From Cellulomonas sp. RIT-PI-Y (lineage in GTDB: Bacteria; Actinomycetota; Actinomycetes; Actinomycetales; Cellulomonadaceae): a DNA stretch of 64,000 nucleotides. The notes below the pieces were generated by a model. The model was not told the origin of the DNA and made no database searches. It saw nothing but the letters and a program-made list of their open reading frames with translations. A program made the translations under genes and the position numbers. Location of the stretch: positions 1-64,000 of the forward strand of contig NZ_JANZKP010000006.1 of NCBI RefSeq assembly GCF_025642745.1, written 5' to 3'. Below, one piece after another: positions 9,602-27,968 of this stretch (its first letter is position 1; each line of letters starts with the position of its first letter).

Positions 9602-9620
9602 GGTGTCCGGCTCCGGCCGG

Positions 9621-11075
9621 TCAGGTCAGATCGGCGGCCGTCTCGGCCGGGGCGATGGCACCGGTGCGGATCAGCTCGGCGTACCAGAGCGCGGAGTCCT
9701 TGGGGATCCGCTCCAGGGTGTCGTAGTCGACCCGGACGATCCCGAACCGGCGGTCGTAGCCGTAGGCCCACTCGAAGTTGTCGAACAGCGACCAGACGAA
9801 GTAGCCGCGCACGTCGGCGCCCTGGTCCATCGCGGCGCCCACGGCGTCGATGTGGTCGTGCAGGTAGCTGACCCGGTCCAGGTCGTGCACCCGTCCGTCG
9901 GCGGAGACCTCGTCGGCGAAGGCGGCACCGTTCTCGGTGATGGCCATCGGCAGTCCGGGGTAGCGCTGGTGCAGCGAGACCAGCAGGTCGGTCAGGCCCT
10001 GCGGCTCCTGGTTCCAGCCCATCGCGGTGTGGGGACCGGGCTGCGGGAGCCACTCGACGTCCTCGGCACCGACCCAGGTGCTGACCGCGGAGGACTTGTG
10101 GCCGTCGACGCCGGGGCTGCCGTCACCGACCTTGGCCTCACCCTGCAGGCGGCGGACCCGCCCGGTGGAGTAGTAGTTGACGCCGAGCAGGCTGAGCGGC
10201 TGGTGGATCAGGTCGAGGTCGCCGTCCTGGACGAAGGACCAGTCGGAGATCGCGGCGGTCTGAGCGAGGACCTCCTCCGGGTAGTGGCCGTCCAGGATGG
10301 GCTGCAGGAAGACTTCGTTGGCGATCAGGTCGATCTTGTGGCGCGCGGCGAGGTCCTCGGCCGACTCGGAGTCGGCGCGGGTGACGTGCAGGTTGAGCGT
10401 GATCGAGATCGTGGTGTCCTCGCCGAGCACCTCGCGGATCGCGGTCGATGCCAGGCCGTGCGCCAGGTTGAGGTGGTGGACGGCGGCGAGCGAGGCGGCC
10501 TGGTCCTGGCGGCCCGGGGCGTGCACCCCGGAGGCGTAGCCCAGATACGCGGAGCACCACGGCTCGTTCAGGGTGGTCCAGATCTCGATCTTGTCGCCCA
10601 GGACCTCGGCCATCTTGCGGGCGTAGTCGGCGAACAGCTCGGCGGTGCGCCGGTTGGTCCAGCCGCCCTGGTCCTCCAGCGGTTGCGGCAGGTCCCAGTG
10701 GTAGAGCGTGACGACCGGGTTGATCCCGGCGGCGAGCAGCCGGTCGACCAGATCCACGTAGAAGGCGATGCCCTCGGCGTTCCACTCCCCCGAGCCGTCG
10801 GGCTGGACCCGCGGCCAGGAGATGGAGAACCGGTAGGCCTCCAGCCCGATCTGCTGCATCAGGGCGATGTCCTCGGGCACCCGGTGGTAGTGGTCGTCGG
10901 CGACCAGGCCGGTGTCGCCGTTGAGCACGGCACCGGGAACGGCGGCGAAGGTGTCCCAGATGGACGGGCCACGACCACCCTCGGTGGCGGCACCCTCGAT
11001 CTGATAGGCGGCGGTGGCCGAGCCCCAGACGAAGTCGGCGGGGAACTGGCGTCCGGACGGTCGGGTGGAGCTCAT
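9621..11075 (-). CDS. GH1 beta-glucosidase
   Basis: 484 aa; ATG at 11075 with GAAGG upstream. Full-length GH1 TIM barrel: N-terminal FVWGSATAAYQIEG, acid/base Glu171 in TLNEP, nucleophile Glu381 in ITENG and the C-terminal WSLFDNFEWAYGY. No signal peptide, so it acts on imported oligosaccharides, hydrolysing beta-glucosyl (possibly beta-galactosyl) ends. Divergent from a LacI gene; an operator-like site (11158-11171) lies upstream. In this locus the natural role would be to remove backbone glucose from xyloglucan oligosaccharides once xylose is trimmed off. Family certain, physiological substrate inferred. Confidence 0.95.
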   Translation of the reverse strand: MSSTRPSGRQFPADFVWGSATAAYQIEGAATEGGRGPSIWDTFAAVPGAVLNGDTGLVADDHYHRVPEDIALMQQIGLEAYRFSISWPRVQPDGSGEWNAEGIAFYVDLVDRLLAAGINPVVTLYHWDLPQPLEDQGGWTNRRTAELFADYARKMAEVLGDKIEIWTTLNEPWCSAYLGYASGVHAPGRQDQAASLAAVHHLNLAHGLASTAIREVLGEDTTISITLNLHVTRADSESAEDLAARHKIDLIANEVFLQPILDGHYPEEVLAQTAAISDWSFVQDGDLDLIHQPLSLLGVNYYSTGRVRRLQGEAKVGDGSPGVDGHKSSAVSTWVGAEDVEWLPQPGPHTAMGWNQEPQGLTDLLVSLHQRYPGLPMAITENGAAFADEVSADGRVHDLDRVSYLHDHIDAVGAAMDQGADVRGYFVWSLFDNFEWAYGYDRRFGIVRVDYDTLERIPKDSALWYAELIRTGAIAPAETAADLT

Positions 11076-11157
11076 GCGGATCCTTCGGATCGGTGGGTGG
11101 CCGGGCGTCCGGTCCCCGGGCGCGGGGCCACGGTGCGGACGACGATGTCGGCGGGTG

Positions 11158-11171
11158 TCGAAACGATACGA
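11158..11171. promoter_or_regulatory. LacI-type operator upstream of GH1
   Basis: TCGAAACGATACGA, one base off the dyad TCGAAACGnTnCGA shared by eight sites in this island; 83 bp upstream of the GH1 start. Confidence 0.6.
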
Positions 11172-11282
11172 TAGCGCGGTGGGAACGCTCCCGCGACCCT
11201 CCCGACGACGTGTCGACATCGGGTTCGACGACCGGGCGCGTCGCTGGCGGCACGAGGGGCGCCATCACGGGGCGGGACGCGG

Positions 11283-11312
11283 TCGAATCGCTTCGCCACC
11301 GCGCACTAGGGT
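11283..11312 (+). promoter_or_regulatory. Operator plus -10 box of the leaderless lacI gene
   Basis: Operator-like TCGAATCGCTTCGC (11283-11296) lies where -35/spacer DNA would be, before -10 TAGGGT (11307-11312). The ATG starts 7 nt after the -10, the spacing expected for a leaderless mRNA. This suggests autoregulation by promoter occlusion. Confidence 0.6.
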
Positions 11313-11319
11313 GTCGGCC

Positions 11320-12324
11320 ATGGCGACGATCGACGAGGTGGCGAAGGCCGCGGGGGTCTCGGCCTCCACGGTGAGCTACGTGCTCAGCGGTAAACGACCG
11401 ATCTCGCCGCGGACCCGGGAACGGGTGGAGCGCACCATCCGCGACCTCGGCTACCGACCCCATGCCGGTGCCCGCGCCCTGGCTTCCAGCCGGAGCAACA
11501 TCATCGCCCTGATGGTGCCGTTCCGGCCCGGGATCAACGTCCAGATCATCATGCAGTTCGTCGGCGGGGTGGTGACCGCGGCCCGCGCGCACGACCACGA
11601 CGTCCTGCTGCTCACCCAGGACGACAGCAACGGGGTGGACCGGGTGGCGTCGTCGTCGATGGCCGACGCGATCATCGTGATGGACGTCGAGGCCGAGGAC
11701 GAGCGGCTGCCCGCCCTGCGCGCCCTGAAGCAGCCGTCGGTCCTGATCGGTGTGCCCTCCGACCCGAGCGGGCTGTCCTGCGTGGACCTGGACTTCACCG
11801 CCGCCGGGCGGTCGGCGGTCCGCACGCTCACGGACGCGGGCCACCGCCGGCTCGCCCTGATCGGTGCCTCGCAGGAGCGGATCGACCGCCGGGCGAACTA
11901 TGCGATCCGGATGCGGGCCGGGGTGGCTGAGGAGTCGGAGCTGCGCGGGGCCGAGGTCACCATGCTGCCGTGCGACCCGCACTTCGCCGGCGGCGTCGCG
12001 GCCCTGGAGCGGGTGCTGGACGAGACCCCGGGCGTCACCGGGCTGGTGGTGCACAACGAGCTGGCGCTGCCCGGCGTGATGTCGGCGCTGGAGCGACGCG
12101 GGGTGCGGGTGCCGGAGGACATCTCGGTGGTGGCGATCGGCGCCGCGGACACCGGCACCGCGCTCCCCCGGCCGCTGACCGGGATCGACGTGCCGGGCGA
12201 GGACATCGGCCGGGTCGCACTGGAGATGGCGATGGCCCAGCTGGAGGGTGACGCACTGGCCAGCACCCGGCTGGTGTCGCCGCAGGTCACCGACCGCGGA
12301 TCGGTCACGCCGCCCACGGACTGA
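11320..12324 (+). CDS. LacI-family transcriptional regulator (first copy)
   Basis: 334 aa. N-terminal LacI helix-turn-helix (TIDEVAKAAGVSASTVSYVL, residues 3-22), hinge helix RPHAGARALAS, then a periplasmic-binding-protein-like effector domain. ATG at 11320 is favoured because a -10 TAGGGT ends 7 nt before it (leaderless); a GTG 9 nt upstream is an alternative. Divergent from GH1 and convergent with GH31. Operator-like sites sit in its own promoter and before GH1, GH42 and the transporter genes, so it is a candidate regulator of the island. Effector sugar unknown. Confidence 0.9.
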   Translation: MATIDEVAKAAGVSASTVSYVLSGKRPISPRTRERVERTIRDLGYRPHAGARALASSRSNIIALMVPFRPGINVQIIMQFVGGVVTAARAHDHDVLLLTQDDSNGVDRVASSSMADAIIVMDVEAEDERLPALRALKQPSVLIGVPSDPSGLSCVDLDFTAAGRSAVRTLTDAGHRRLALIGASQERIDRRANYAIRMRAGVAEESELRGAEVTMLPCDPHFAGGVAALERVLDETPGVTGLVVHNELALPGVMSALERRGVRVPEDISVVAIGAADTGTALPRPLTGIDVPGEDIGRVALEMAMAQLEGDALASTRLVSPQVTDRGSVTPPTD

Positions 12325-12339
12325 CAGCCCGGCCGTCGT

Positions 12340-12387
12340 CCGAGGTCGGTAGTCGCACCCGAGCTCGGCAGTTCAGCCCGAGGTCGG
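12340..12387. repeat. 19-bp-period palindrome array (3 units)
   Basis: CCGAGGTCGG at 12340, CCGAGCTCGG at 12359 and CCGAGGTCGG at 12378: short inverted-repeat cores placed exactly 19 bp apart. A second array of the same family, in opposite orientation, is at 23196-23281. Confidence 0.8.
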
Positions 12388-12533
12388 CAGTCGGCCAGGG
12401 GATTCGTGGCCGGAAGTGCCGCACTCGACGCGGGCAGGGGCGGCGGGCCGGGGCCTGCAGGCGCTGGAACTCCGGCGATCACGCCTCGCGGGCCAAGTGC
12501 CCGGCCTGGGTCCGGGTCCCACGGAGCCAGGAA

Positions 12534-12596
12534 CCAAGCGCCAAGCGCCAAGCGCCAAGCGCCAAGAGGCCACGAGGCCACGAGGCCACGAGGCCA
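12534..12596. repeat. Heptamer and octamer tandem repeats
   Basis: Four full copies of CCAAGCG (12534-12561) plus a partial copy, followed directly by three copies of AGGCCACG (12567-12590) plus a partial copy. Two different short tandem repeats abut each other in a noncoding region. Confidence 0.85.
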
Positions 12597-12601
12597 AGGT
12601 C

Positions 12602-12631
12602 GTGCGGTGCCGGGTCGCCCCGGCACCGCAC
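12602..12631. terminator. Bidirectional terminator between lacI and GH31
   Basis: Perfect 13-bp inverted repeat (12602-12614 against 12619-12631) with a 4-nt loop, 8 nt after the GH31 stop on the minus strand. Confidence 0.78.
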
Positions 12632-12638
12632 ACCCTGC

Positions 12639-14882
12639 TCAGAGCGTGAACTCGGCCCGGTCGCCCTCGGCGGCGATCACCCGGTCGCCGATCCGGACCG
12701 ACCACGGAGCGGAGGCCCCGGTGGCAGTGGCGGTGACGGTGTCACCGGAGCGCACCACCCGGAAGGACACCGCACCCACGACCGTGGTGGAGTCGTGCCC
12801 GTCGGCCGGTTCGAACACGCGCAGGGTGACCCCGTCGGCGTGGTCGTAGTCCGGGCGGTCGGTGCGGGCGCCCACCGGGAGCACGCTGTCCGGCCGGGCG
12901 AGCAACGGCACCGACAGGAAGTCGTGCCGCTGACGGTGCCAGCGCGGACCGACCACGGTGGAGTCGTCGATCAGGCTGGTCCAGGTGCCCTCCGGCACGT
13001 AGACGTCGACCTCGCCGTCGGCGGAGAACACCGGGGCGACCAGCAGGTTCTCGCCGAGCATGTACTGGGTGTCGACGGTGGCCGTCGCCGGGTCCTCCGG
13101 GAACTCCAGCAGCATCGGGCGCATCACGGGCAGACCGTCGGTGTGCGCCGTCCGGCCGACCCGGGACAGGTACGGCATCAGGGACAGCTTGAGCTCGGTG
13201 AACCGGCGGGTGACCTCGACGGCCTCCTCGTCGAAGGCCCACGGCACCCGGTAGGAGTCCGATCCGTGCAGCCGGGAGTGGCTGGACAGCAGGCCGAAGG
13301 CCAGCCAGCGCTTGAACACCGCCGGGTCCGGGGTGCCCTCGAACCCGCCGATGTCGTGCGACCAGTAGCCGAAGCCGCTCATCGACAGCGACAGCCCGCC
13401 GCGCAGCGACTCGGCCATCGAGACGAAGGTCGACTCGCAGTCTCCGCCCCAGTGCACCGGGAACTGCTGACCGCCCGCGGTGGCGGACCGGGCGAACAGC
13501 ACAGCCTCACCCTCGCCGCGCTCGGCGACCAGCAGGTCGAAGACGGCCTGGTTGTAGAGGTGCGTGTAGTAGTTGTGCATCGCCTGCGGGTCGGAGCCGT
13601 CGTGCCAGACCACGTCGGTCGGGATCCGCTCGCCGAAGTCGGTCTTGAAGCAGTCGACGCCGAGGTCGAGCAGCGCACGCAGCTTGCCCTGGAACCAGGC
13701 CACCGCGTCCGGGTTGGTGAAGTCGACCAGCGCCATGCCGGCCTGCCACATGTCCCACTGCCAGACCGAGCCGTCCGGGTTCTTCACCAGGTAGCCGAGC
13801 TCGCGGCCCTCATCGAACAGGTAGCTGCGCTGGGCGATGTACGGGTTGATCCAGACGCAGACCTTGAGGTCGCGCTCGTGCAGCCGGGTCAGCAGCCCCT
13901 GCGGGTCCGGGAAGGTCGCCGGGTCCCAGACGAAGTCGCTCCAGTGGAACTGCCGCATCCAGAAGCAGTCGAAGTGGAAGACGCTGAGCGGCAGCCCGCG
14001 GTCGGCCATCCCGTCGATGAAGGACATCACGGTGTCCTCGTCGTAGGAGGTGGTGAAGGAGGTGGACAGCCACAGGCCGTAGGACCAGTCCGGCACCGCG
14101 GCGGGCCGGCCGGTGAGCGCGGTGTAGCGGCGCAGCACGTCCTTGGGGGTCGGTCCGGCGACGACGTAGTAGCGCAGGCGCTGGCCCGGCACGCTGAACT
14201 GGGTGCGGGAGACCGCCTCGGAGCCGATCTCGAACGAGACGTGCTCGGGGTGGTCGACGAAGACGCCGTAGCCCTTGTCCGACAGCAGGAAGGGCACGTT
14301 CTTGTACGCCTGCTCGGAGGAGGTGCCGCCGTCGGCGTTCCAGATGTCGACGGTCTGCGAGTTCTTGACGAACGCGGTGAACCGCTCGCCCAGACCGTAG
14401 ACGTGCTCGCGCACGCCCAGGTCCAGCTGCTCGCGGACGTAGGGGGTGCCGTTGTCGTCGACGACGGCCAGCCCGCGGGCGTCCGAGCCGGTGACCCGGC
14501 GACCGTCGACCGCGATGTCCAGCGACCAGCCGCCCTCGGTGGCGACGGTGGCGGTGAGGTTGCCGGTGGTGAGGGTGGCGGGGCCCTGCTCCGGGCGCTC
14601 GACGGTGGCGACCGGCAGGCCGCCGTCGTTGATCGCGAAGTGCGGACCGCGGTCGACCCCGCCCCGGAAGTGCTCCACGGTCACGCCGAGCACGCCCTCC
14701 GCCGGGGAGTCCAGCGTGATGGTGACCAGCGGGCGGTTCAGGGTGTCTCCGCGCTTGGTCAGCCGAGCGGTGGCGGCGTAGACGGTGAGCGTGCCGTCGC
14801 CGGCCACCACCTCGTCGATGCCGACCGGCTTGAGCATGCTCACTCCGGGTCGGGTCATCCAGTAGCCGTCGGTGAACTTCAT
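12639..14882 (-). CDS. yicI: GH31 alpha-xylosidase, YicI type
   Basis: 747 aa. It matches E. coli alpha-xylosidase YicI along the whole length: N-terminus MKFTDGYWMTRPG, EHVYGLGERFTAFVKN, FHFDCFWM, nucleophile Asp415 in FKTDFGERIPTD, acid/base Asp481 in VHWGGDCES, and GFWSHDIGGFE-like GFGYWSHDIGGFE. FxxDCFWM and KTDFGE are hallmarks separating alpha-xylosidases from alpha-glucosidases. Cytoplasmic. It removes non-reducing alpha-1,6-xylose from xyloglucan oligosaccharides or isoprimeverose. ATG at 14882 overlaps the GH42 stop (ATGA), so both enzymes are co-translated. Confidence 0.95.
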   Translation of the reverse strand: MKFTDGYWMTRPGVSMLKPVGIDEVVAGDGTLTVYAATARLTKRGDTLNRPLVTITLDSPAEGVLGVTVEHFRGGVDRGPHFAINDGGLPVATVERPEQGPATLTTGNLTATVATEGGWSLDIAVDGRRVTGSDARGLAVVDDNGTPYVREQLDLGVREHVYGLGERFTAFVKNSQTVDIWNADGGTSSEQAYKNVPFLLSDKGYGVFVDHPEHVSFEIGSEAVSRTQFSVPGQRLRYYVVAGPTPKDVLRRYTALTGRPAAVPDWSYGLWLSTSFTTSYDEDTVMSFIDGMADRGLPLSVFHFDCFWMRQFHWSDFVWDPATFPDPQGLLTRLHERDLKVCVWINPYIAQRSYLFDEGRELGYLVKNPDGSVWQWDMWQAGMALVDFTNPDAVAWFQGKLRALLDLGVDCFKTDFGERIPTDVVWHDGSDPQAMHNYYTHLYNQAVFDLLVAERGEGEAVLFARSATAGGQQFPVHWGGDCESTFVSMAESLRGGLSLSMSGFGYWSHDIGGFEGTPDPAVFKRWLAFGLLSSHSRLHGSDSYRVPWAFDEEAVEVTRRFTELKLSLMPYLSRVGRTAHTDGLPVMRPMLLEFPEDPATATVDTQYMLGENLLVAPVFSADGEVDVYVPEGTWTSLIDDSTVVGPRWHRQRHDFLSVPLLARPDSVLPVGARTDRPDYDHADGVTLRVFEPADGHDSTTVVGAVSFRVVRSGDTVTATATGASAPWSVRIGDRVIAAEGDRAEFTL

Positions 14883-16936
14883 CGATCCTCCTCGATCAGG
14901 GCGACGGCGGACTCGGCCGGAAGCACGAGGTCGCCGGGGGTGCGGGTGCCGCCGATCAGGTCGGTGGCGGGGAAGGGCAGTCGGACCGTGCGGGTCTCGA
15001 CGCCGTGGTTCAGCAGGAAGAGCACGTCGCCGCGGCGGATCGCCTCGACGTCCGGCGGGCAGGCCACCGGGCCGTGCACACCGGCGGCGTCGGCGCAGTC
15101 CCGCAGGATCCGGGCCAGCACGTCGGAGGGCGGGACGGTGGACAGGTACCAGGCCTGGCCCCCGCTCGGGTGCAGCCGCCGGGTGATCGCCGGGCGACCG
15201 GCCAGTCCGGCATCGGCGTACCACGCCAGCACCTCGGCGCCGTCGGCACGCAGCAGTTCGGACCAGGTCACGGCGCGGAAGTCGCCGAACCGGTCGCTGC
15301 GCACCTGGGCACCGGTCTCCGGCAGGGGGCGGTGCTGCTCGCCGCTGACCCCGAGCACCTCGGCCCACGGTCCGGGGAACCGACCGGCCCGCACGTGGGC
15401 GTCGGGATCGGCGACCGCGGAGAACGGGCCGACGAGCAGCACTCCCCCGCGCTCGGGCACCCGGGCCAGGTTGGCCGCGTCGGCGTCCGAGACCAGGTAG
15501 AGCCCCGGTACGACGACCAGGTCGTAGCCGTCGAGCTCCCCGCCGGGGTGCACGACGTCGACTGCGATGCCTTCGCGCCAGAGCGGCTCGTACGCGGCGA
15601 GCAGCTGGTCGACGGCGTCCATCCGGTCGCTCGGACTGCCCGGCGCGCGACCGGCCCACCAGGACTGCCAGTCGAAGACCAGCGCGGCGCGGGCGTCGAC
15701 CCGGGTGCCCGCGACCCGACGCAGCCGCGACAGCACGGCGCCCTGGTCGACCACGGAGCGGTGCAGGTCGGTGTCCGGCCCGGCGTGCGGCAGCATCGCG
15801 GAGTGGAAGCGCTCGGCACCGGCCACCGAGGCCCGCCACTGGAAGTAGCAGATCGCGTCCGCCCCGTGCGCGACCGCTCGCAGGGAGTCGACCAGCATGG
15901 TCCCGGCGGAGCGCGGCAGGTTGTGCGGCCGCCAGTTCACCGCGCTGGTGGCCTGCTCCATCAGCGCCCACGGCCGACCGTCGCCGAGCGACCGCATCAG
16001 GTCGTGGGTGAGGGCGGCACGGGCCGGGCTGCGGGGGTCGGCCGGGTCCGCGTACCAGTCGTCGGCGACGACATCGAGGTCGCCGGCCCAGCTCCGGTAG
16101 TCGACCAGTGGGAAGAAGCCCATGAAGTTGGTGGTCACCGGAACGCCCGGAGCCAGCTCCCGCAGCAGGTCGGCCTGCACCCGGTACAGGTCGCGCAGCT
16201 GGTCGGAGGCGAACCGGCGGTAGTCCAGCTCCTGGGTGGGGTTGTGCAGGTACGGCGCGGTGCGCGGCGGGACGACCTCGGACCAGCGGCCGTGGTGCTG
16301 CGACCAGAACGCGGTCCCCCACGCGCGGTTCAGCTCGTCCAGGGTGCCGTAGCGCTGCCGCAGCCAGCCGCGGAACGCCTCGGCGCACAGGTCGCAGTAG
16401 CAGACCTGGCCGAACTCGTTGCCGACGTGCCACATGCTCAGTGCGGGGTGATCGGCGTACCGCTCCGCGAGCACCCGGACGATCCGCAGCACGTGCTCGC
16501 GGAAGACCGGCGAGGTCGGGCAGAAGTGATTGCGGGAGCCGTGACTCATCCGCACGCCGTCCGGGTTCACCGCGGAGGTCTCCGGGTGGTCGACCGCCAA
16601 CCAGGGCGGTGCCGAAGCGGAGGGGGTCGCCAGGTCGACCGCGATCCCGGCCTCGGCGAGCAGGTCGAGCACCCGGTCCAGCCACGCCAGGTCGAGGGCA
16701 CCGGGCTGCGGTTCGAGCCTCCCCCAGGAGAAGACGCCGACCGTGACCAGGTTGACCCCGGCGGCCGTCATCAGCGCGACGTCCTCCGGCCAGACCTCGG
16801 CGGGCCACTGCTCGGGGTTGTAGTCACCGCCGTAGAGCAGGCCGCGTCCGGCCACGAGTGCGGTGAAGGACGCCTGACCGGCCGCACGCGCGGTGGGGTC
16901 GGCGGGCGGGGCGTGGGGGGCGGGATCAGGCTGCAC
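14879..16936 (-). CDS. GH42 beta-galactosidase
   Basis: 685 aa, GTG at 16936. GH42 motifs: YGGDYNPEQWP at the N-terminus, acid/base Glu174 in HVGNEFG, nucleophile Glu327 in ALMEQATS, and the four cysteines of the family zinc site (Cys139, Cys179, Cys181, Cys184 in NHFCP and CYCDLC). A trimerisation domain and C-terminal beta domain follow. No signal peptide. Likely releases beta-galactose from imported oligosaccharides, here probably the beta-1,2-galactose on xyloglucan side chains exposed by the fucosidase. It has its own promoter and a perfect operator upstream. An ATG 10 nt upstream is out of frame. Confidence 0.94.
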   Translation of the reverse strand: MQPDPAPHAPPADPTARAAGQASFTALVAGRGLLYGGDYNPEQWPAEVWPEDVALMTAAGVNLVTVGVFSWGRLEPQPGALDLAWLDRVLDLLAEAGIAVDLATPSASAPPWLAVDHPETSAVNPDGVRMSHGSRNHFCPTSPVFREHVLRIVRVLAERYADHPALSMWHVGNEFGQVCYCDLCAEAFRGWLRQRYGTLDELNRAWGTAFWSQHHGRWSEVVPPRTAPYLHNPTQELDYRRFASDQLRDLYRVQADLLRELAPGVPVTTNFMGFFPLVDYRSWAGDLDVVADDWYADPADPRSPARAALTHDLMRSLGDGRPWALMEQATSAVNWRPHNLPRSAGTMLVDSLRAVAHGADAICYFQWRASVAGAERFHSAMLPHAGPDTDLHRSVVDQGAVLSRLRRVAGTRVDARAALVFDWQSWWAGRAPGSPSDRMDAVDQLLAAYEPLWREGIAVDVVHPGGELDGYDLVVVPGLYLVSDADAANLARVPERGGVLLVGPFSAVADPDAHVRAGRFPGPWAEVLGVSGEQHRPLPETGAQVRSDRFGDFRAVTWSELLRADGAEVLAWYADAGLAGRPAITRRLHPSGGQAWYLSTVPPSDVLARILRDCADAAGVHGPVACPPDVEAIRRGDVLFLLNHGVETRTVRLPFPATDLIGGTRTPGDLVLPAESAVALIEEDR

Positions 16937-16978
16937 CGTGCGTCATTGCCTCGGGGTCGGGCTCCGATCGACGGGACG

Positions 16979-16992
16979 TCGAAGCGCTTCGA
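16979..16992. promoter_or_regulatory. Perfect LacI-type operator upstream of GH42-GH31
   Basis: TCGAAGCGCTTCGA, a perfect 14-bp palindrome, 43 bp upstream of the GH42 start and just downstream of a promoter-like sequence, where bound repressor would block transcription start. Confidence 0.8.
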
Positions 16993-17004
16993 TTGACGGG
17001 GTCG

Positions 17005-17034
17005 ACTGTAGCAATCAGGAGGGAACGATGTCGA
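17005..17034 (-). promoter_or_regulatory. Promoter for GH42-GH31
   Basis: On the minus strand, -35 TCGACA (17034-17029) and -10 TACAGT (17010-17005) with an 18-bp spacer. The perfect operator starts 12 bp downstream of the -10. Confidence 0.55.
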
Positions 17035-17095
17035 GGTCCGGGAGAGGTGGCGGCCCTGCTCGGCTGCTGCGATGCCGCAGCGCGCCGACCTGCCC

Positions 17096-19459
17096 TCACA
17101 CCGGCACCCGCACCGGCTTCCCGGCGGCCAGCTCGACGCGCCAGAGCCGGTGCCGCCACCGGACCTCGCACGGTCCCGCCGAGCGCGCGGACAGCGCCGT
17201 GAGCTCGACCGCGCGCGGGACGGCCGCCGTCCACTGCAGAGCGACCGCGACGCCGGGGTGCACGATCAGACCGTGCACCTCCCCCGCCTCCGCGAGCGCC
17301 GCCGGGAGCGCCGGCAACAGGCGGATCGTCCCGTCGACACCGCTGACCAGAAGCTCGGCCACCGCCGCGGTGAGGCCGAGGTTGCCGTCGATCTGGAACG
17401 GCGGGTGGGCGGCGAACAGGTTCCGGTAGACGCCCCCGGCGTGCGGGCCTCGGGCCTCCGGTGCCGGGCGCGACGGCCCGGCCGGCTCCGGATCGTCGTC
17501 CCACGCCGCACGCAGCGCCAGGCCGAGCACCCGGCCGGCCCGTTCGCCGTCGCCCAGCCGCGCCCACAACGCCGCCTTCCAGGCCACCGACCAGCCGGTG
17601 GAGTCGTCACCGCGCCGGTCCAGGGTCGCCGCCACGGCCTCGGCGTGCTCTCCGGGCCCCTCCCCGGGATAGGCGAACACCAGAGCAGACACGTGCCGGT
17701 GCTCCGGCTCGACCTCGACCCGAGGGCCGTCCCACTCGCGCACGGTCCCGTCGTCGGCGACCACCGGTCCGGGGACCCGGGGCAGGGCGGCGTCCAGTTC
17801 GGCCAGCACCGGGTGCGACTCCCCCAGCTCGGTCGCCAGACCGCGCACGGTCGCGGCCAGCTCGTGCAGCAGCGCCCGGTCCATCCCGGATCCCCGGGTC
17901 AGCGAGGCCGGACCGCGCGGGGTGTCGAAGCGGTTCTCCGGCGAGGTCGACGGCCAGCTCGCGAGCGTGCCGTCCGGACGCTCGGTCAGCAGGTCCAGCG
18001 CACCCTGCGCGGCACCGACTGCGAGCGGCCAGAGCCGCGCACGCCAGGCGTCGTCGACCACGCCGAGTCGTCGCAGCTCGTCGAGCTGGCGCACCAGCCA
18101 CACCCCACCCATCGGCCACAGTGCCCAGGACGCGTCCCCGGCGGTCGGGCGGGTGTTCGCCCAGGCGTCGGTGTTGTGGTGCGCCACCCAGCCCCGCGCG
18201 CCGTACAACCGCCGGGCGGTGTCCGCGCCGTGCACCGCGAGCGCCTCGGCCAGCTCGAGCAGCGGCTCGGCGGTCTCGGCCAGGCCGGTGGGCCCGGCCG
18301 GCCAGTAGTTCATCTCGGTGTTGATGTTCAGGGTGTACGCGCTGGACCACGGCGGCCGCAGGTCGTCGTTCCACAGGCCCTGGAGGGTGGCGGGCAGACC
18401 ACCCGGGCGGGACGCGGCGATCAGCAGGTACCGGCCGTAGTCGGCGAGCAGCGCCAGCAGGTCCGGGTCACCGGCCAGCGGGCCGTCCGGGTGGCGCTCG
18501 GCGTGCCGCACCCGGAGATCGGTGTCGGTGCCGGAGTCCGGCCTCGGGATCCCGAGGGACAGCCCGAACCGGTCCATCAGTCCGCGGTGGTCCGCGAGGT
18601 GCCGCTCACGCAGCTCGGACCAGGTGGCGGACGCGGTCGCCGCCAGCACGGCCGTGGCCCGGTCGGCCGCGACCCCGTGCGGACAGCCGCCGATCCGGTC
18701 GAAGGTGGTCGCGGTCGCAAGTCGGAGCTCCAGGACCCGGACCCCGACCAGCCTGACCCCGTCCGCCGTGGTGACATGGGTGCCGTCGTGCCGCCAGGAG
18801 AGCGCGACCGCACCGGTCAACGGGGTCACGCCGTCGACCTGCCAGGTGAGCGCGGGCTCGTCCGGCTCGTGCCCGGGAGCGACATCCGCCGGGAGGGTCA
18901 TCCGCAGCACGGCGCCGTCCGCGTCGACCGTCAGCTCCGGTGCGCCCAGCGGGGTGGTCAGCGACAGGTCGAGGTCCACCGGGTCGTCGCTGGTCAGACG
19001 GTGCACCAGGAGGCCGTCCGGCGCGCTGAGGAAAGTGCGGTGCCGCAGGGCTCCCGCGGTGACCAGGTGCTCCCCGTCACGCAGCCGGAGTCGCCGCTCG
19101 ACCGGGGCCGCGGAGTGGTCGATCCGCAGCACCAGGTCGGCGAACGGCAGGTAGGCCTGGACGTAGTCCTGCTGCAGCGCGGACAGCGCACGTTCGGCGT
19201 CCACGATCCGCCCCTGGTCCCACAGCGCCGCGGCCTCGGCACGTGCGCGGGCGGCCTCCTCGGCGGGGAGCGTCCCACGCCGAGCGGCCGACCCCACGCC
19301 GCCGGACCAGGCGGTGCCGTCGTTCAGCTGCAGGTGCAGCCGGTCGGCGGCGGCCAGCACCATCGCTCCGGTGCGGCCGTTCCCGAGCGGGAGCCCGTCC
19401 AGCCAGCCCGCACTGGGCCGGCCGTACCGCAGCTCCCGCCCGGGGTGGTCGATCGTCAT
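17096..19459 (-). CDS. GH95 alpha-L-fucosidase (or alpha-L-galactosidase)
   Basis: 787 aa; ATG at 19459, one base after the permease stop, so transcribed with the ABC genes. GH95 signature segments are in order: LPLGNGRTGAMV (about 28-39), NINTEMNYWPAG (central barrel, with the paired Asn used to activate water), SWALWPMGGVWL, PSTSPENRF (expected general-acid Glu) and HPPFQIDGNLG near the C-terminus. Cytoplasmic, no signal peptide. GH95 enzymes are inverting 1,2-alpha-L-fucosidases; some prefer alpha-L-galactose. With GH42, GH31 and GH1 beside it, fucosylated xyloglucan side chains are the best-fitting substrate. Confidence 0.93.
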   Translation of the reverse strand: MTIDHPGRELRYGRPSAGWLDGLPLGNGRTGAMVLAAADRLHLQLNDGTAWSGGVGSAARRGTLPAEEAARARAEAAALWDQGRIVDAERALSALQQDYVQAYLPFADLVLRIDHSAAPVERRLRLRDGEHLVTAGALRHRTFLSAPDGLLVHRLTSDDPVDLDLSLTTPLGAPELTVDADGAVLRMTLPADVAPGHEPDEPALTWQVDGVTPLTGAVALSWRHDGTHVTTADGVRLVGVRVLELRLATATTFDRIGGCPHGVAADRATAVLAATASATWSELRERHLADHRGLMDRFGLSLGIPRPDSGTDTDLRVRHAERHPDGPLAGDPDLLALLADYGRYLLIAASRPGGLPATLQGLWNDDLRPPWSSAYTLNINTEMNYWPAGPTGLAETAEPLLELAEALAVHGADTARRLYGARGWVAHHNTDAWANTRPTAGDASWALWPMGGVWLVRQLDELRRLGVVDDAWRARLWPLAVGAAQGALDLLTERPDGTLASWPSTSPENRFDTPRGPASLTRGSGMDRALLHELAATVRGLATELGESHPVLAELDAALPRVPGPVVADDGTVREWDGPRVEVEPEHRHVSALVFAYPGEGPGEHAEAVAATLDRRGDDSTGWSVAWKAALWARLGDGERAGRVLGLALRAAWDDDPEPAGPSRPAPEARGPHAGGVYRNLFAAHPPFQIDGNLGLTAAVAELLVSGVDGTIRLLPALPAALAEAGEVHGLIVHPGVAVALQWTAAVPRAVELTALSARSAGPCEVRWRHRLWRVELAAGKPVRVPV

Positions 19460-19460
19460 C

Positions 19461-20387
19461 TCAGAACCGCACACCGCCCGCGGCCAGGCCGGAGCGCCAG
19501 AACCGCTGCAGGGAGATGAAGATGACGATGATCGGGATGATCGAGACCAGGGCGCCGATGATCACCAGGGTCTGCAGGCCCGGGATGGTGATCGCGGCCT
19601 GGCTCCAGCCGGACAGCCCGACCGTGACCGGCTGCAACCGGGTGTCGGTCAGCACCAGCAACGGCAGCATGTAGCTGTTCCAGGAGCCGATGAACGCGAA
19701 CAGCAGGATCGTGACCGACCCGGAGCTGAGCAGCCGGGACGCGATGGACCGGAAGATCCGCCACTCGCCGGCACCGTCCAGCCGGGCCGCCTCCAGGATC
19801 TCCCCCGGTACCGCGGACCCCGCGAACACGAAGCCCAGCATCACGCCGAACGGGTACACCAGCTGCGGCAGCAGGACGCCGAGCATGGTGTTGTTCAGCC
19901 CGATCTCGACCAGCAGGACGTAGATCGGCTGGGCGAGCACGGTCTGCGGGACCAGCATCGACCCGAGGACCGCACCCAGCACCACCGAGCGGCCCCGGAA
20001 CCGGTACACCGCCAGGGCATAGCCGGTGATCACGCAGATGAAGGTCATCAGGATCGAGCCGACACCGGAGTAGACCACCGAGTTGCCCAGCCAGCGCCAG
20101 AAGATGCCGCCGTCCCGCGCGGTGAGGTCGGCCAGGTTCTGGAACAGGTGGAAGTCCGCGAACCAGAACCCCGGGGTGGAGAACAGGTCGCCGGTGCTCT
20201 TGGTCGAGGCGACGATCAGCCAGTACACCGGCACCAGGAAGTAGACCGCCGTGACGATCATGACCGCCCAGCCGATCACCCGGGCGCCGCGGCTCGGGCG
20301 TTCGCCCTCGGCGGTGGTCCGCGGCTTCGGCGGCTTGCCGGGGGTCGTCGACGCCGGGCGTCCGCTGACGATGGTCGGGGCGGTCAT
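19461..20387 (-). CDS. Sugar ABC transporter permease, MalG/CUT1 type
   Basis: 308 aa, about six TM helices after a hydrophilic 35-residue N-terminus. The cytoplasmic EAA loop reads EILEAARLDGAGEWRIF, the contact site for the transport ATPase. ATG at 20387 overlaps the upstream permease stop (ATGA). Forms a heterodimer with the next permease and works with the lipoprotein binding protein upstream. No ATPase gene is in the locus; CUT1 systems of actinobacteria usually share one (MsiK) encoded elsewhere. Confidence 0.93.
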   Translation of the reverse strand: MTAPTIVSGRPASTTPGKPPKPRTTAEGERPSRGARVIGWAVMIVTAVYFLVPVYWLIVASTKSTGDLFSTPGFWFADFHLFQNLADLTARDGGIFWRWLGNSVVYSGVGSILMTFICVITGYALAVYRFRGRSVVLGAVLGSMLVPQTVLAQPIYVLLVEIGLNNTMLGVLLPQLVYPFGVMLGFVFAGSAVPGEILEAARLDGAGEWRIFRSIASRLLSSGSVTILLFAFIGSWNSYMLPLLVLTDTRLQPVTVGLSGWSQAAITIPGLQTLVIIGALVSIIPIIVIFISLQRFWRSGLAAGGVRF

Positions 20388-21331
20388 CGCGCACCGCCCT
20401 TCTTCCGGTTGGAGGCGGCGGACAGCACGATCGACAGGACCATGGTCGCGATGCCCAGCAGCACCGCCATCGCGGAGCCGAGGTTGAGGTTCCCGCCCAG
20501 GGTGGTGGTCTGGTAGATCGCCATGTTCGGCGTGTAGGAGCCGGAGATGTTCGAGGTGATCGACCGCAGGGTCATCGGCTCGTTGAACAGCTGCAGCGTC
20601 CCGATGATCGAGAACAGCGTGGTGAGCAGCACGGCGGGCATGATCATCGGCACCTTGATCTGCAGCGCCAGCCGCAGCTCGTTCGCCCCGTCGATCCGGG
20701 CGGCCTCGTACATCTCCCGGGGCACGGTCTGCAGCGAGCTGAAGATGATGATCATGTTGACGCCGGTGACCGACCAGATCACCACGTTCACCAGCGACCA
20801 CATCACGGTGCCGGGCGCCAGGAACTGCGGGTCGACGCCCATGCCGCGCAGCAGCTCGACGATCGGGCTGACCTTCGGCTGGTACAGGAAACCCCAGATC
20901 AGCGCCGCGACCACCGACGGCACCGCGTACGGCAGGAACACCGACAGCTGGAAGAACTTCTTCCCGCGCACCATCGCGGAGTCGAACAGCAGGGCGAGCG
21001 CCAGCGCGATCAGCAGCATCACCGGCACCTGCACCGCGCCGAACAGCAGCACCCGGCCGAAGGAGCGCAGGAACTCGGAGTTCCCGAACGCCTGCACGTA
21101 GTTGTCCAGACCGACGAACGCCTCCTCACCGCCGCCGAAGCCGAGCCCGGAGCGCTGCACCGCGAAGAAGCTCTTGTAGACCGCGATCACGATCGGCAGC
21201 ACCAGGAAGACCACGAACAGCGCGACGAACGGCGCGATGAACACGTAGGGAGCGGCCCGCAGCCCCCCGCTGAGCCGACCGCGCGAGCGGCCGGGGCGGG
21301 GGGCCACGGTGGCCGGGGAGGCCGAGGTCAC
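20384..21331 (-). CDS. Sugar ABC transporter permease, MalF/CUT1 type
   Basis: 315 aa, six predicted TM helices starting with APYVFIAPFVALFVVFLV. EAA motif: REMYEAARIDGANELRLA. The GTG start overlaps the stop of the binding-protein gene (GTGA). Gene order binding protein-MalF-MalG is canonical for oligosaccharide importers. Lies in the same transcription unit as the GH95 enzyme. Confidence 0.93.
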   Translation of the reverse strand: MTSASPATVAPRPGRSRGRLSGGLRAAPYVFIAPFVALFVVFLVLPIVIAVYKSFFAVQRSGLGFGGGEEAFVGLDNYVQAFGNSEFLRSFGRVLLFGAVQVPVMLLIALALALLFDSAMVRGKKFFQLSVFLPYAVPSVVAALIWGFLYQPKVSPIVELLRGMGVDPQFLAPGTVMWSLVNVVIWSVTGVNMIIIFSSLQTVPREMYEAARIDGANELRLALQIKVPMIMPAVLLTTLFSIIGTLQLFNEPMTLRSITSNISGSYTPNMAIYQTTTLGGNLNLGSAMAVLLGIATMVLSIVLSAASNRKKGGAR

Positions 21332-22632
21332 TCCCGCACCTCGAGGCCCATGTCCTTCAGGTCCTTCACCGTCTTGGCCTGGACCTGGTCCAGCGCCTCG
21401 GCGAAGGTGAGCCGGCCGTTGGCGACCTGGGCGAAGGCGTCCTTCAGCGCGTCCTGCGTCAGGTCGAAGGTCGGGCCGTCCACCCAGGAGTCCGGCACCG
21501 TCGCGGCGGCGTCGGCGAAGGTCTGGTTCGCGACCGCCCCGCCGAAGTACTCGTCCTCGACCAGCAGGTTGCTGTTCTCCTGGCCCACGTAGGCCGAGGG
21601 GAACACACCCCCGTCGATCAGGTGCGTGGTGCCCTCCTCGCTGGCGTTCAGCCAGCTGATGAACTCGACCGCCTGCTCGACGTGCTCGGTGCCGCGCGGC
21701 ACCACGTTCACCGAGCCGCCGGACTCACCGGCCGCGTCGGAGCCGCTGAACGTCGGGGTCGGGGCGATCCCCCACTGGCCGGACAGGTCCGCGGCGCTCT
21801 CCTTGAGCAGAGCCGGGAACCAGGCGCCGTAGTTGATCGTGGCGATGGTGCCGTCGTTGACCTCGGCCCAGTACTCCGGGGTCCACATCTCGACGACCTT
21901 CACCAGGTCCTCGTCCAGCAGGGTCTGCCACACGTCGGCGACCGCCATGCTCGCGTCGTCGTTGACGGTGACCTGCCACGAGTCGCCGTCGATGCCGTAC
22001 CACGACCCGGAGTTCTGCCACACGGACTGGATCCAGAACCCGGCCTCGTTCGGGGAGAACTGGGCGATGTACACGTCGGGGTCGGCGGCGTGCAGCGCGC
22101 GGGCCGCGTCCAGGTACTCGTCCCAGGTGGTCGGCACGTCGATGCCGTACTGCTGGAACAGGTCGGTCCGGTACAGCAGGCCGGAGGGACCGGAGTCCTG
22201 CGGGACCGCGTAGACCGCCGAGTCGAAGACCACGGTGCCCCAGGAGGACGGCGTGAACTGGTCCTCCAGGTCACCGGCGTACTCGGTGATGTCGGTCAGC
22301 CGGTCGTTGACGATGTGGCCCGGCAGCGAGTGGCTGGACATCTGCACGATGTCCGGGGCGGTGCCGGCGTCGATCGCGGCGGGGATCTTGTCGCCGTCGT
22401 CGCCGGTCATCCGGAAGAAGTCGATCTGGATGTCGGGGTTCGCCGCGTTCCACTCGGCGACGGTGTCCTCCAGTCCGGGGACCCAGCCCCAGAACTCGAG
22501 GGTGACCGGCTCGCCGTCGCTGCCCGATCCGCTGCCGCCGTCGCCGCCGCCCGAGCAGGCCGTCACGGCCAGGCTCAGCACTCCGACAGTCGCCGCAGCC
22601 GCGAACAGCCGCTTCTTGTTCCCACTGGCCAT
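21328..22632 (-). CDS. Sugar ABC transporter substrate-binding lipoprotein
   Basis: 434 aa. Lipoprotein signal with basic NKKR, hydrophobic core and lipobox VTAC (Cys26), then a Gly/Ser linker and a CUT1 extracellular binding domain (EPVTLEFWGWVPG; PDIVQMSSHSLPGH). Anchored outside the membrane, it would capture oligosaccharides for the two permeases. First gene of the unit ending with GH95; SD AGAGGAA upstream of the ATG. Two operator-like sites and a promoter lie upstream. The ligand is inferred as xyloglucan oligosaccharides from the enzymes. Confidence 0.92.
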   Translation of the reverse strand: MASGNKKRLFAAAATVGVLSLAVTACSGGGDGGSGSGSDGEPVTLEFWGWVPGLEDTVAEWNAANPDIQIDFFRMTGDDGDKIPAAIDAGTAPDIVQMSSHSLPGHIVNDRLTDITEYAGDLEDQFTPSSWGTVVFDSAVYAVPQDSGPSGLLYRTDLFQQYGIDVPTTWDEYLDAARALHAADPDVYIAQFSPNEAGFWIQSVWQNSGSWYGIDGDSWQVTVNDDASMAVADVWQTLLDEDLVKVVEMWTPEYWAEVNDGTIATINYGAWFPALLKESAADLSGQWGIAPTPTFSGSDAAGESGGSVNVVPRGTEHVEQAVEFISWLNASEEGTTHLIDGGVFPSAYVGQENSNLLVEDEYFGGAVANQTFADAAATVPDSWVDGPTFDLTQDALKDAFAQVANGRLTFAEALDQVQAKTVKDLKDMGLEVRE

Positions 22633-22709
22633 CGTTGGCGTTCCTCTCTGAAGCCACCGCTCGGGTGGACCCGGTGGGCAGCCGGGGCGCTGCTCACCTG
22701 TGCGATCGG

Positions 22710-22723
22710 TTGAAGCGCTTCGA
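22710..22723. promoter_or_regulatory. LacI-type operator, proximal, upstream of first binding protein
   Basis: TTGAAGCGCTTCGA, one base from the perfect palindrome, 78 bp upstream of the ATG. Confidence 0.7.
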
Positions 22724-22886
22724 CCTCGACGAGGGCGGTGGCCGCCGCGGATCCGTGGACAGGCGTCCGGGATCGTTGTGCGGAAATGTGCGACTCAGAG
22801 CGTCGGACGGGAGCAGTCCTCGCAGCGTGCCGGGTGGCCCGATGCGACAGAACTGCGCCCTCGGAGGTCTCCATTGCCCTGGATTG

Positions 22887-22900
22887 CGCAAGCGCTTCGA
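22887..22900. promoter_or_regulatory. LacI-type operator at the promoter of first binding protein
   Basis: CGCAAGCGCTTCGA: one perfect half-site and core, with the other arm degenerate. It lies 17 bp downstream of the -10 box, overlapping the expected early transcribed region. Confidence 0.6.
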
Positions 22901-22916
22901 CGGTCTCGCTGGTGTG

Positions 22917-22946
22917 ACCATACGGGCTGTGCGACAGCTGTGACAA
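22917..22946 (-). promoter_or_regulatory. Promoter for the first transporter-GH95 unit
   Basis: On the minus strand, -35 TTGTCA (22946-22941), 18-bp spacer, -10 TATGGT (22922-22917). The transcript would have a leader of about 275 nt containing both operators. Confidence 0.6.
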
Positions 22947-23281: not shown

Positions 23282-23322
23282 CAGCAGGTGACGGGGCGAG
23301 CACCCCGGGCAGGCAGCGCGAC

Positions 23323-23421: not shown

Positions 23422-24339
23422 TCACTTCACCGCACCCGCCGTGATGCCACGGGTCAGGGTCCGCTGGAACAGGATGAAGAAGATGATCGCCGGGATCATC
23501 GACACCAGGGCACCGGCGTTGGTGGTCGGCGCGTCCATCATCCGGTCGCCCTGGAGCGAGGCCAGCGCCACCGGGATGGTCTGGGTGGCGTTGGTGGTCA
23601 GCATGACCAGCGGGATGAAGAACTCGTTCCAGGTCCAGATGAAGAAGAAGATCACCAGCACCGACATGGTCGGCCGGACCACCGGGAACACCACGCTCCA
23701 CAGGGTCCGCCAGCGACCGGCGCCGTCCAGCGCGGAGGCTTCCAGCAGCGCCTTCGGGAAGGTGCCGAGCACGGAGGACAGCAGGTAGGTGCCGAATGCC
23801 GCCTGGATCACGGTGAAGATGAGGATGATCGACCACTGGTTGTTGCTCAGCCCGACCTTCTGCGCCATCTGGAACAGCGGGTAGACCAGCACCTCCTGCG
23901 GCAGCATGTTCGCCAGCAGGAACAGGGTGACGATCGACATCCGGCCCTTGATCTTGCCCACGCCGAGCGCGTAGGCGCTGAGCAGGGAGACGAACACCGC
24001 GAAGATCGCGACGGTGCCGGAGATCCACACCGAGTTGACCAGCTTCTGCGGGAAGTTGACCCGCTCCCAGAAGTTGACCAGTCCGTCGGTGTACACCTCC
24101 TTCGGGATGCTCAGCGGGCCGTTGGTGGAGTAGTCGGCGGGCGACTTGAAGGCGTTGAGCACCATGATGACGAACGGGATCATCATCGCCACGGCGACGA
24201 CGATCGCCGCGGCCAGCACGAACCAGCGGGCCGCGCCGCGCCGGTGCCGGCGGTCGGTGTCGGTGGCCTTGGCCTTGCGCGGGGGCTTGCCCGTGCCGAC
24301 CGAACCGGAGCTCGGCAGGGTCTCGATCTGGGTGGCCAT
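23422..24339 (-). CDS. Sugar ABC transporter permease, MalG type (second system)
   Basis: 305 aa. A charged cytoplasmic N-terminus (about 1-38) is followed by six TM helices; EAA loop ALLEASALDGAGRWRTLW. ATG at 24339 shares a base with the stop of the partner permease (TGATG), with GAGGAGG before it. Last gene of the lacI-binding protein-MalF-MalG unit. It belongs to CUT1 but is clearly different in sequence from the MalG-type permease of the first system, so this is not a recent duplication. Confidence 0.93.
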   Translation of the reverse strand: MATQIETLPSSGSVGTGKPPRKAKATDTDRRHRRGAARWFVLAAAIVVAVAMMIPFVIMVLNAFKSPADYSTNGPLSIPKEVYTDGLVNFWERVNFPQKLVNSVWISGTVAIFAVFVSLLSAYALGVGKIKGRMSIVTLFLLANMLPQEVLVYPLFQMAQKVGLSNNQWSIILIFTVIQAAFGTYLLSSVLGTFPKALLEASALDGAGRWRTLWSVVFPVVRPTMSVLVIFFFIWTWNEFFIPLVMLTTNATQTIPVALASLQGDRMMDAPTTNAGALVSMIPAIIFFILFQRTLTRGITAGAVK

Positions 24340-26679: not shown

Positions 26680-26728
26680 GTCGTTCCTCCTCATCGAGTT
26701 ACTGCTGGGTCGTGCCGTGCGCCGGTGG

Positions 26729-27790: not shown

Positions 27791-27836
27791 TCCACTGCCC
27801 TCTTCCTCGACGGCACGGCCCCACTCCATCGCGGGG

Positions 27837-27850
27837 TCGAAGCGCTTCGC
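27837..27850. promoter_or_regulatory. LacI-type operator, promoter-proximal, second lacI
   Basis: TCGAAGCGCTTCGC, 9 bp downstream of the -10 box and about 47 bp upstream of the GTG start. Confidence 0.7.
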
Positions 27851-27954: not shown

Positions 27955-27968
27955 TCGAAACGGTTCGA
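27955..27968. promoter_or_regulatory. LacI-type operator, distal
   Basis: TCGAAACGGTTCGA, both half-sites intact, centres 58 bp from the middle site. No gene reads away from it, so a looping or auxiliary operator is plausible. Confidence 0.6.

Follow-up and report, generated by a model that had tools for sequence, protein, structure and literature searches.

A probable LacI-controlled, import-first system for xyloglucan oligosaccharides, including fucosylated ones, in Cellulomonas sp. RIT-PI-Y

Import-first utilization of xyloglucan was described in Ruminiclostridium cellulolyticum, where the cluster Ccel_2451-2458 encodes an ABC importer, a GH42, a GH31 and a beta-glucosidase, with cellobiose as a product; comparable clusters were noted in more distant Gram-positives, and the legend of Figure 12 of the same paper marks alpha-fucosidase genes in similar clusters (PMC4780118). 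Related systems are known from Anaerocellum bescii (PMC12710961), Xanthomonas and Cellvibrio japonicus (PMC8245568), and cellobiose regulons of the CelR/CebR type from Actinobacteria (PMC3377646). Here, we analyze a locus in a 64,000-nt stretch of Cellulomonas sp. RIT-PI-Y, referred to as the window, on contig C56 of a draft genome (3.52 Mb, 94 contigs, 99.98% complete). The locus combines glycoside hydrolases (GHs) of four families with two CUT1 importers, each with a solute-binding protein (SBP1 and SBP2), and two LacI-type regulators. With a probability of about 80%, it serves the import-first use of xyloglucan oligosaccharides, with or without fucose, under LacI control. The genes are as follows (window positions):

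9621..11075, minus strand: GH1 beta-glucosidase, predicted cytosolic (PF00232; TIGR03356, 582 bits, cut-off 478.5; nearest solved structure 1gnx, a beta-glucosidase, 589 bits)
11320..12324, plus strand: LacI1, probable xyloglucan repressor (PF00356/PF13377)
12639..14882, minus strand: GH31 alpha-xylosidase of the YicI type, predicted cytosolic (Pfam; NF007940; YicI alignment)
14879..16936 (start could be 16855), minus strand: GH42 beta-galactosidase, predicted cytosolic (PF02449/PF08532/PF08533; nearest solved structure 9ta3, 562 bits)
17096..19459, minus strand: GH95 alpha-L-fucosidase (or alpha-L-galactosidase), predicted cytosolic (PF22124, E 8e-125)
19461..20387, minus strand: CUT1 permease (MalG type), importer 1 (PF00528)
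20384..21331, minus strand: CUT1 permease (MalF type), importer 1 (PF00528)
21328..22632, minus strand: SBP1, solute-binding lipoprotein of importer 1 (PF01547; 434 aa)
23422..24339, minus strand: CUT1 permease, importer 2 (PF00528)
24339..25274, minus strand: CUT1 permease, importer 2 (PF00528)
25369..26694, minus strand: SBP2, solute-binding lipoprotein of importer 2 (PF13416/PF01547; 441 aa)
26729..27829, minus strand: LacI2, first gene of the importer 2 operon, 34 nt from SBP2 (PF00356/PF13377)

A previous sequence-only reading had named GH1, GH31 of the YicI type, GH42, GH95, a CUT1 importer and a LacI regulator in this locus. All of these genes were recovered by Pfam matches and as refined genes at 9621-22632, with best E-values per gene ranging from 1.6e-9 (a permease) to 9e-158 (GH1). 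The bounds proposed then, 9621-22946, do enclose the named genes, but GH1 starts inside the listed open reading frame (ORF) and the upper bound coincides with the -35 element of a promoter-like site. The locus extends to about 27970, and another CUT1 cassette, which has a LacI gene of its own, had been left out; this unit, LacI2-SBP2-permease-permease (27829-23422), lies directly upstream of SBP1. Besides LacI1, spacing defines the units SBP1-permease-permease-GH95, GH42-GH31 and GH1, the last being divergent from LacI1. The distances from SBP1 through GH95 are -4, -4, and +1 nt and that from GH42 to GH31 is -4 nt, as in operons. By eye, no signal peptide was found on GH1, GH31, GH42 or GH95, and both SBPs carry a lipobox.

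The families GH95, GH42, GH31 and GH1 would together cover the four linkages of xyloglucan, with specificities and order of cleavage deduced from the families. The GH31 protein scores 1228 bits against the NCBIfam alpha-xylosidase equivalog NF007940 (cut-off 606) and aligns with Escherichia coli YicI over 732 residues (965 bits). It retains the motif HFDCFWM of YicI with the active-site Cys-Phe, a mark of xylosidases. The GH42 protein is close to solved GH42 beta-galactosidases. For GH95, the best solved matches are 2rdy (BH0842), 7kmq, 8zbv and 4ufc, of which 7kmq is the enzyme of a Xanthomonas xyloglucan locus. Both a fucosidase and an L-galactosidase are compatible with xyloglucan. The structure 4ufc belongs to an alpha-L-galactosidase of Bacteroides ovatus (PMC8245568). 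Residues N378, N380, E508, and D691 of GH95 are invariant in the 25 sequences aligned, and the catalytic set of alpha-1,2-L-fucosidases, an Asn-x-Asn base (N378/N380) and an Asp acid (D691), is thus present, the residues being named as in PMC8245568. Also invariant in these sequences is T376, located two residues before the first catalytic Asn and matching T395 of the Xanthomonas enzyme XacAfc95. This polymorphic -1 position was reported not to decide between fucose and L-galactose (PMC8245568), and His or Thr at the -1 subsite was therefore dropped as a fucose marker.

Similarly to R. cellulolyticum, CUT1-type import is combined here with GH42, GH31 (NF007940) and a beta-glucosidase (TIGR03356), all predicted to be cytosolic from the lack of signal peptides; two SBP-dependent importers are encoded alongside these enzymes. 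A cellobiose phosphorylase was also proposed there for xyloglucan-derived cellobiose, as in our scheme. In contrast, R. cellulolyticum relies on a GH3 and on a two-component system with an AraC-like regulator instead of GH1 and LacI, encodes its cytoplasmic GH95 outside the described cluster rather than in the locus, and has endo-xyloglucanases, none of which were found here by searches for GH74, GH12, GH9, and GH5 (PMC4780118). The A. bescii system Athe_2052-2054 is likewise an SBP-dependent ABC importer of xyloglucan oligosaccharides in a Gram-positive, with GH42 and a fucosidase as proposed helpers, as here. Its binding protein (551 aa, cluster G type; PMC12710961) is longer than both SBP1 and SBP2, and binding proteins of about 550 aa occur in relatives of our strain. 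The loci of Xanthomonas and C. japonicus share the use of a GH95 alpha-1,2-fucosidase and a GH31 alpha-xylosidase for xyloglucan, but these bacteria are Gram-negative, with TonB-dependent uptake through the outer membrane and GH35 instead of GH42; the Xanthomonas locus (GH95/GH31/GH35/GH74), unlike ours, contains a GH74 (PMC8245568).

The units of the locus are linked by a palindromic operator, TCGAAGCGCTTCGA, found together with promoter-like sites and one cellobiose box at the following positions:

16979..16992: perfect operator TCGAAGCGCTTCGA, before GH42-GH31 (palindrome search)
22710..22723: operator with one mismatch, before SBP1 (palindrome search)
27837..27850: operator with one mismatch, before LacI2-SBP2 (palindrome search)
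27955..27968: weaker operator copy with two mismatches, before LacI2 (palindrome search)
11283..11296, plus strand: weaker operator copy with two mismatches, between GH1 and LacI1 (palindrome search)
22889..22900, minus strand: additional operator copy TCGAAGCGCTTG, weaker than that at 22710, 16 nt past the promoter-like site at 22946-22917
17005..17034, minus strand: promoter-like site TCGACA-18-TACAGT with TG before the -10, 12 nt before the GH42 operator (16992-16979)
22917..22946, minus strand: promoter-like site TTGTCA-18-TATGGT of the SBP1-GH95 operon, 16 nt before the operator copy 22900-22889
11180..11193, plus strand: CelR/CebR-type cellobiose box TGGGAACGCTCCCG, 105 nt upstream of the GH1 start

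With at most two mismatches, the window holds 6 copies of the palindrome, where 0.19 would be expected and 100 shuffles gave 2 at most. With at most one mismatch, it is found in only four places in the entire genome, before GH42, SBP1, LacI2, and a GH94 gene on contig C15, all four of which belong to the proposed scheme. Allowing two mismatches gives 24 places (the reversed pattern gives 11), and two-mismatch sites alone therefore mean little; no glycosidase was seen behind the 5 of the 17 such sites outside the window that were read by eye. Two promoter-like sites were found in 9500-28200 (18.7 kb), with 0.4 expected, and both stand shortly before operators (12 and 16 nt). The order of promoter and then operator would suit repression at the stage of initiation or escape. 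No promoter-like site was found before LacI2 in the same scan. Like CelR/CebR regulons of Actinobacteria, the locus has LacI regulators, 14-base palindromes, a CUT1 importer and an intracellular beta-glucosidase; the CelR/CebR box is identical before our GH1, but the half-sites of TCGAAGCGCTTCGA differ from those of CelR/CebR (PMC3377646). The motif AAGCGCTT is absent from the main text of that paper, and two C. flavigena motifs given there have a looser core, AA(T/A)CGNTT, in common with our operator (PMC3377646).

In 10 relatives, the operator with at most one mismatch was found in 35 places, compared with 14 when the pattern was reversed, and 27 of the 35 are located at xyloglucan-type genes. 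No link to xyloglucan, or no clear one, was seen for the other eight: two fall within genes that by eye resemble the beta chain of phenylalanyl-tRNA synthetase, one stands between genes judged by eye to be clpP- and clpX-like, one beside a CelR-like box (C. biazotea), one near tatA-like genes (Cellulomonas genome G130), and three beside genes that could not be placed. None of 31 operator copies in 18 stretches falls inside a called gene, the stretches with off-target hits (L169, L175-L178) being left out of this count. A perfect operator precedes a secreted GH74-CBM2 protein in C. biazotea (by 128 nt) and G130 (by 90 nt), and another perfect operator precedes a GH5-CBM_X2-CBM46 protein in the same genomes (by 237 and 146 nt, respectively); the GH5 gene of C. 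biazotea begins further upstream than called. The C. biazotea GH74 matches solved xyloglucanases (5fkr, 6p2o) with more than 1000 bits. The best matches of the G130 GH5 are cellulase and endoglucanase structures (5xrc, 5e09, 4v2x), with the xyloglucan-specific endoglucanase 4w85 further down, which leaves its activity on xyloglucan more doubtful than that of GH74. Promicromonospora has two operators before a GH5 that carries a ricin-type lectin domain and shows about 31% identity to the other GH5s. The earlier assignment to xyloglucan is thus strengthened, since the operator common to GH42-GH31 and to the importer-GH95 operon precedes GH74 and GH5-CBM46 in relatives and GH94 in the strain itself. 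A secreted endo-xyloglucanase under the same operator, which that reading had suggested looking for, was not found in RIT-PI-Y among the sites read and the families searched but does exist in C. biazotea and G130 as GH74-CBM2.

In the proposed scheme, other organisms would in this case probably release the oligosaccharides extracellularly, SBP1, SBP2 or both would bind them, and the two pairs of CUT1 permeases would carry them into the cytosol. There, GH95 would remove terminal alpha-1,2-fucose, GH42 beta-1,2-galactose, and GH31 alpha-1,6-xylose, after which GH1 would cut glucose from the debranched beta-1,4-glucan backbone and leftover cellobiose would pass to the cellobiose phosphorylase encoded on contig C15. 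LacI1, bound to TCGAAGCGCTTCGA just behind the promoters, would block transcription until an oligosaccharide or a breakdown product releases it, and GH1 and the phosphorylase additionally carry a CelR/CebR-type cellobiose box. Gene content, the operators with their conservation, and the protein families are read directly from sequence; substrates, cleavage order, the pairing of regulator and operator, and the inducer are inferred.

Boxes of the form TGGGANCGCTCCCR were found in three places in the genome: before GH1, before a CUT1 operon that includes a LacI gene (contig C7), and before the GH94 gene. The box TGGGAACGCTCCCG is identical to a CelR-like site (two mismatches) before an ABC transporter operon of C. 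flavigena (PMC3377646). Boxes related to it are also found before GH1 in C. denverensis, C. taurus, C. biazotea, and genome G060. The operator on contig C15 is located 88 nt before the GH94 cellobiose phosphorylase (PF17167; 2cqs, 1585 bits) and 80 nt before a divergent gene of 209 aa; the phosphorylase thus carries both the xyloglucan operator and a cellobiose box. In C. biazotea (contig C196, L175:4261-4289), a CelR-like box and a one-mismatch operator, separated by a single base, lie upstream of a gene of 286 aa.

Searches of the RIT-PI-Y draft assembly gave no match for PF15902 (GH74), PF01670 (GH12) or PF00759 (GH9), GH44, GH16, and GH45 not being among the families searched, and two matches for PF00150 (GH5), both below the cut-off. 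Among 14 genomes, PF15902 matched in three: C. biazotea (above the cut-off), G130 (E 2.9e-4, below the cut-off), and G346. The last match was rejected as a GH74, being a 368-aa gene call without a signal peptide by eye and not of GH74 length. C. taurus (G220) and C. denverensis showed no match to PF15902. The search did find the GH74 proteins of C. biazotea and G130 and can therefore detect them, although with little room. RIT-PI-Y, having no GH74, GH12, GH9 or above-cut-off GH5, therefore seems to scavenge fragments that other organisms produce and would possess only the import and debranching half of an import-first xyloglucan system.

Several observations weigh against the xyloglucan reading as a whole. 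The searches for GH74, GH12, GH9, and GH5 gave no endo-xyloglucanase family in the genome, and fuconate dehydratase is absent from it at E 1e-60 (the isomerase route to fucose breakdown lying outside that search); the enzyme is present in 9 of 14 genomes and missing from those of RIT-PI-Y, C. taurus, G346, C. denverensis, and C. biazotea. In C. taurus and C. denverensis, the three operators found with one mismatch or fewer all sit in the locus and none at a phosphorylase, so the xyloglucan box of the phosphorylase is not general. A xyloglucanase of another actinobacterium, A. mirum, was predicted to be under CelR instead (PMC3377646). The best solved matches of SBP1 are 6q5g, 6h0h, and 2z8d, and the best named among them, 2z8d, binds galacto-N-biose/lacto-N-biose. 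Moreover, the SBP1-permease-GH95 cassette occurs without GH31 in a 20-kb stretch in 6 of 11 SBP1 relatives (L132-L137), as well as in L034 and L057. The last two points would fit a system for fucosyl-galactosides, such as 2'-fucosyllactose or mucin and blood-group glycans, in which SBP1 imports, GH95 and GH42 cut, and GH31 and GH1 serve another purpose; the GH31-less cassettes of other genera stand beside AXE1-type esterase, GH2 or enolase-type dehydratase genes. We regard this alternative as very unlikely: a single operator is common to GH42-GH31, the importer-GH95 operon, importer 2, and the cellobiose phosphorylase, and the same operator precedes GH74 and GH5-CBM46 in relatives. Milk and mucin glycans are not known to hold alpha-xylosides, which also counts against it. 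No galacto-N-biose/lacto-N-biose phosphorylase or hexosaminidase was found among the called genes of 9621-27829, all of which were scanned with Pfam. A variant within the xyloglucan reading is that the operons serve only small pieces (isoprimeverose, Gal-Xyl-Glc, Fuc-Gal-Xyl-Glc) rather than XXXG-type hepta- to nonasaccharides. YicI-type enzymes act on isoprimeverose, which speaks for this variant, as does the lack of a detected endo-xyloglucanase in the strain. Additionally, the GH74/GH5 carriers C. biazotea and G130 have a binding protein of about 550 aa, named A2, under the operator, and none exists at the four best operators of RIT-PI-Y; the length of A2 is about that of the XXXG-binding protein of A. 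bescii (551 aa; PMC12710961). However, the link of GH1 and GH94 to the regulon suggests a backbone longer than one glucose, and the restriction to small pieces seems doubtful, if a good deal less so than the fucosyl-galactoside system.

The remaining point against concerns the regulator, for which LacI2 is a competing candidate. LacI1 has a helix-turn-helix (HTH) and a sugar-binding domain and is encoded beside a palindromic operator, as expected of a LacI-family repressor. Its helix STVSY(V/A)LSGKR, from which that of LacI2 differs, was found in 9 of 11 sequences, including the one from RIT-PI-Y, the HTH being cut by the gene caller in the other two. Regulation by LacI2 instead of LacI1 would be compatible with the rest of the xyloglucan reading, and LacI2 heads an operon that has operators at 27837 and 27955; the operator also precedes it in C. 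denverensis and C. taurus. Nevertheless, in the loci read LacI2 was seen in only three genomes (RIT-PI-Y, C. taurus, and C. denverensis). Orthologues of LacI1, by contrast, were found in far more operator-bearing loci: those of C. denverensis, C. taurus, C. biazotea, G130, G060, G031, Promicromonospora, Microbacterium, and two Arthrobacter. Because of this distribution, LacI1 is probably the regulator of TCGAAGCGCTTCGA, and control by LacI2 is improbable.

At E 1e-90 or better, SBP1 matches were obtained in 12 of the 396 genomes searched in the order, RIT-PI-Y among them. Gene order is conserved in C. denverensis and C. taurus, and the full locus is present in the latter, its GH1 being cut by the end of the stretch. 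In G346, the order is a LacI-type ORF, then GH42, SBP1, permeases, GH95, GH31, and GH1; its LacI and GH95 are absent from the gene calls and were recovered as an ORF or by tblastn. Among the GH31-less cassettes L132-L137, the neighbors include an AXE1-type esterase in all six, a GH2 in four (L132-L135), and in two (L136, L137) an enolase-type dehydratase, presumably for L-fucose oxidation. No operator with at most two mismatches was found in these six stretches, and one of the six genomes, G031, has GH31, GH42, and LacI1 elsewhere under the operator (L174). The remaining three SBP1 stretches (L138-L140) are more distant or poorly called. The placement of GH95 beside a permease gene, pointed out in the earlier reading, is thus not specific to xyloglucan, since SBP1-permease-GH95 also stands beside AXE1-type esterases with no GH31 in the stretch. 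Because such cassettes exist in other genera, SBP1-GH95 looks like a general fucoside module, which in the lineage of RIT-PI-Y stands under the xyloglucan operator. ROK regulators or FAA hydrolase genes also lie near the L132-L137 cassettes.

A scan with the GH95 alignment, from which the best 80 of at least 588 loci were kept with flanks of up to 10 kb (less at contig ends), showed GH31 at 50% identity or more in four of the 80 (Arthrobacter L015, C. denverensis L019, Microbacterium sp. HD4P20 L025, and C. biazotea L082); SBP1 at 45% or more was seen in five (L019, L022, L025, L034, and L057). The L022 contig, filed under an acidobacterial metagenome-assembled genome, holds an SBP1-permease-GH95 cassette with 68-77% identity in SBP1 and the permeases, perhaps by binning error or transfer. 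Repeated recruitment of GH95 to xyloglucan loci is one possible reading of a tree of 52 rows (the RIT-PI-Y protein, 38 of 89 loci, and 13 author-chosen proteins of 120 listed). The xyloglucan-linked label requires four changes there, of which the starred branches force three, but it shows no clustering beyond that of shuffles (93 of 500 were as low), and losses could also account for the pattern. On this tree, L165 was labeled by hand, as its GH31 would fall beyond the end of the stretch.

SBP2 and GH31 share one operon-like run adjoining LacI1 in G060 and Microbacterium sp. HD4P20. The A2 importer, a third CUT1 type, was found under the xyloglucan operator in relatives including C. biazotea and G130, opposite a GH3 gene where scanned, with shorter gene calls in Arthrobacter; it is possibly the large-oligosaccharide importer of degraders. 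Its copies in relatives are:

L165:10687-12351: A2 importer
L082:6250-7908: A2 importer
L171:12672-14324: A2 importer
L172:9035-10528: A2 importer
L173:2062-3432: A2 importer

Between the two importer operons, the window has an imperfect tandem repeat at 23190-23280 (period 19, 4.6 copies). Between the two importers of C. denverensis lies a gene for a secreted 731-aa protein (L019:4255-6450), and no gene is called there in the window; this protein was rejected as a GH74 candidate, being a DUF5122 beta-propeller with Ig-like domains. A second hemicellulose-type cluster lies at 62009-64000 and beyond the window (L013:2010-10364, C56:62009-70363), with a GH43 that has a beta-xylosidase C-terminal domain and a GH3 (Pfam), followed by permease-like, SBP-like, and LacI-like genes, as judged from their first residues. 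Rfam and tRNA scans gave a single tRNA, a tRNA-Arg (CCG) at 56647-56721, and none within the locus.

Since import-first use is known in Ruminiclostridium and Anaerocellum, the system described here is a variant and not a new kind. In qualification of the earlier reading, such use with GH42, GH31 and a CUT1 importer was already shown in R. cellulolyticum (PMC4780118). A literature search, with most subscription journals outside its reach, gave no report of an actinobacterial xyloglucan importer or regulator of this kind. What would be new is the actinobacterial, LacI-controlled, GH95-linked version with two importers and no detected endo-xyloglucanase. Beyond this locus, we lean slightly toward the view that LacI1 and TCGAAGCGCTTCGA form an undescribed xyloglucan regulator of several actinobacterial families, driving the endo-xyloglucanases, importers, and debranching enzymes of degraders. 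In the lineage of RIT-PI-Y, C. taurus, and C. denverensis, where no GH74 was detected, a different importer pair and the fucoside cassette under the same operator would turn the regulon of a degrader into that of a scavenger, with GH1 and, in RIT-PI-Y, the cellobiose phosphorylase gated by both xyloglucan and cellobiose regulators. Xyloglucan is a main hemicellulose of primary plant cell walls, and the operator allows xyloglucan genes to be listed by sequence alone across Cellulomonas, Promicromonospora, Microbacterium, and Arthrobacter. With GH74/GH5 degraders and likely scavengers under one switch, cross-feeding becomes testable within one genus.

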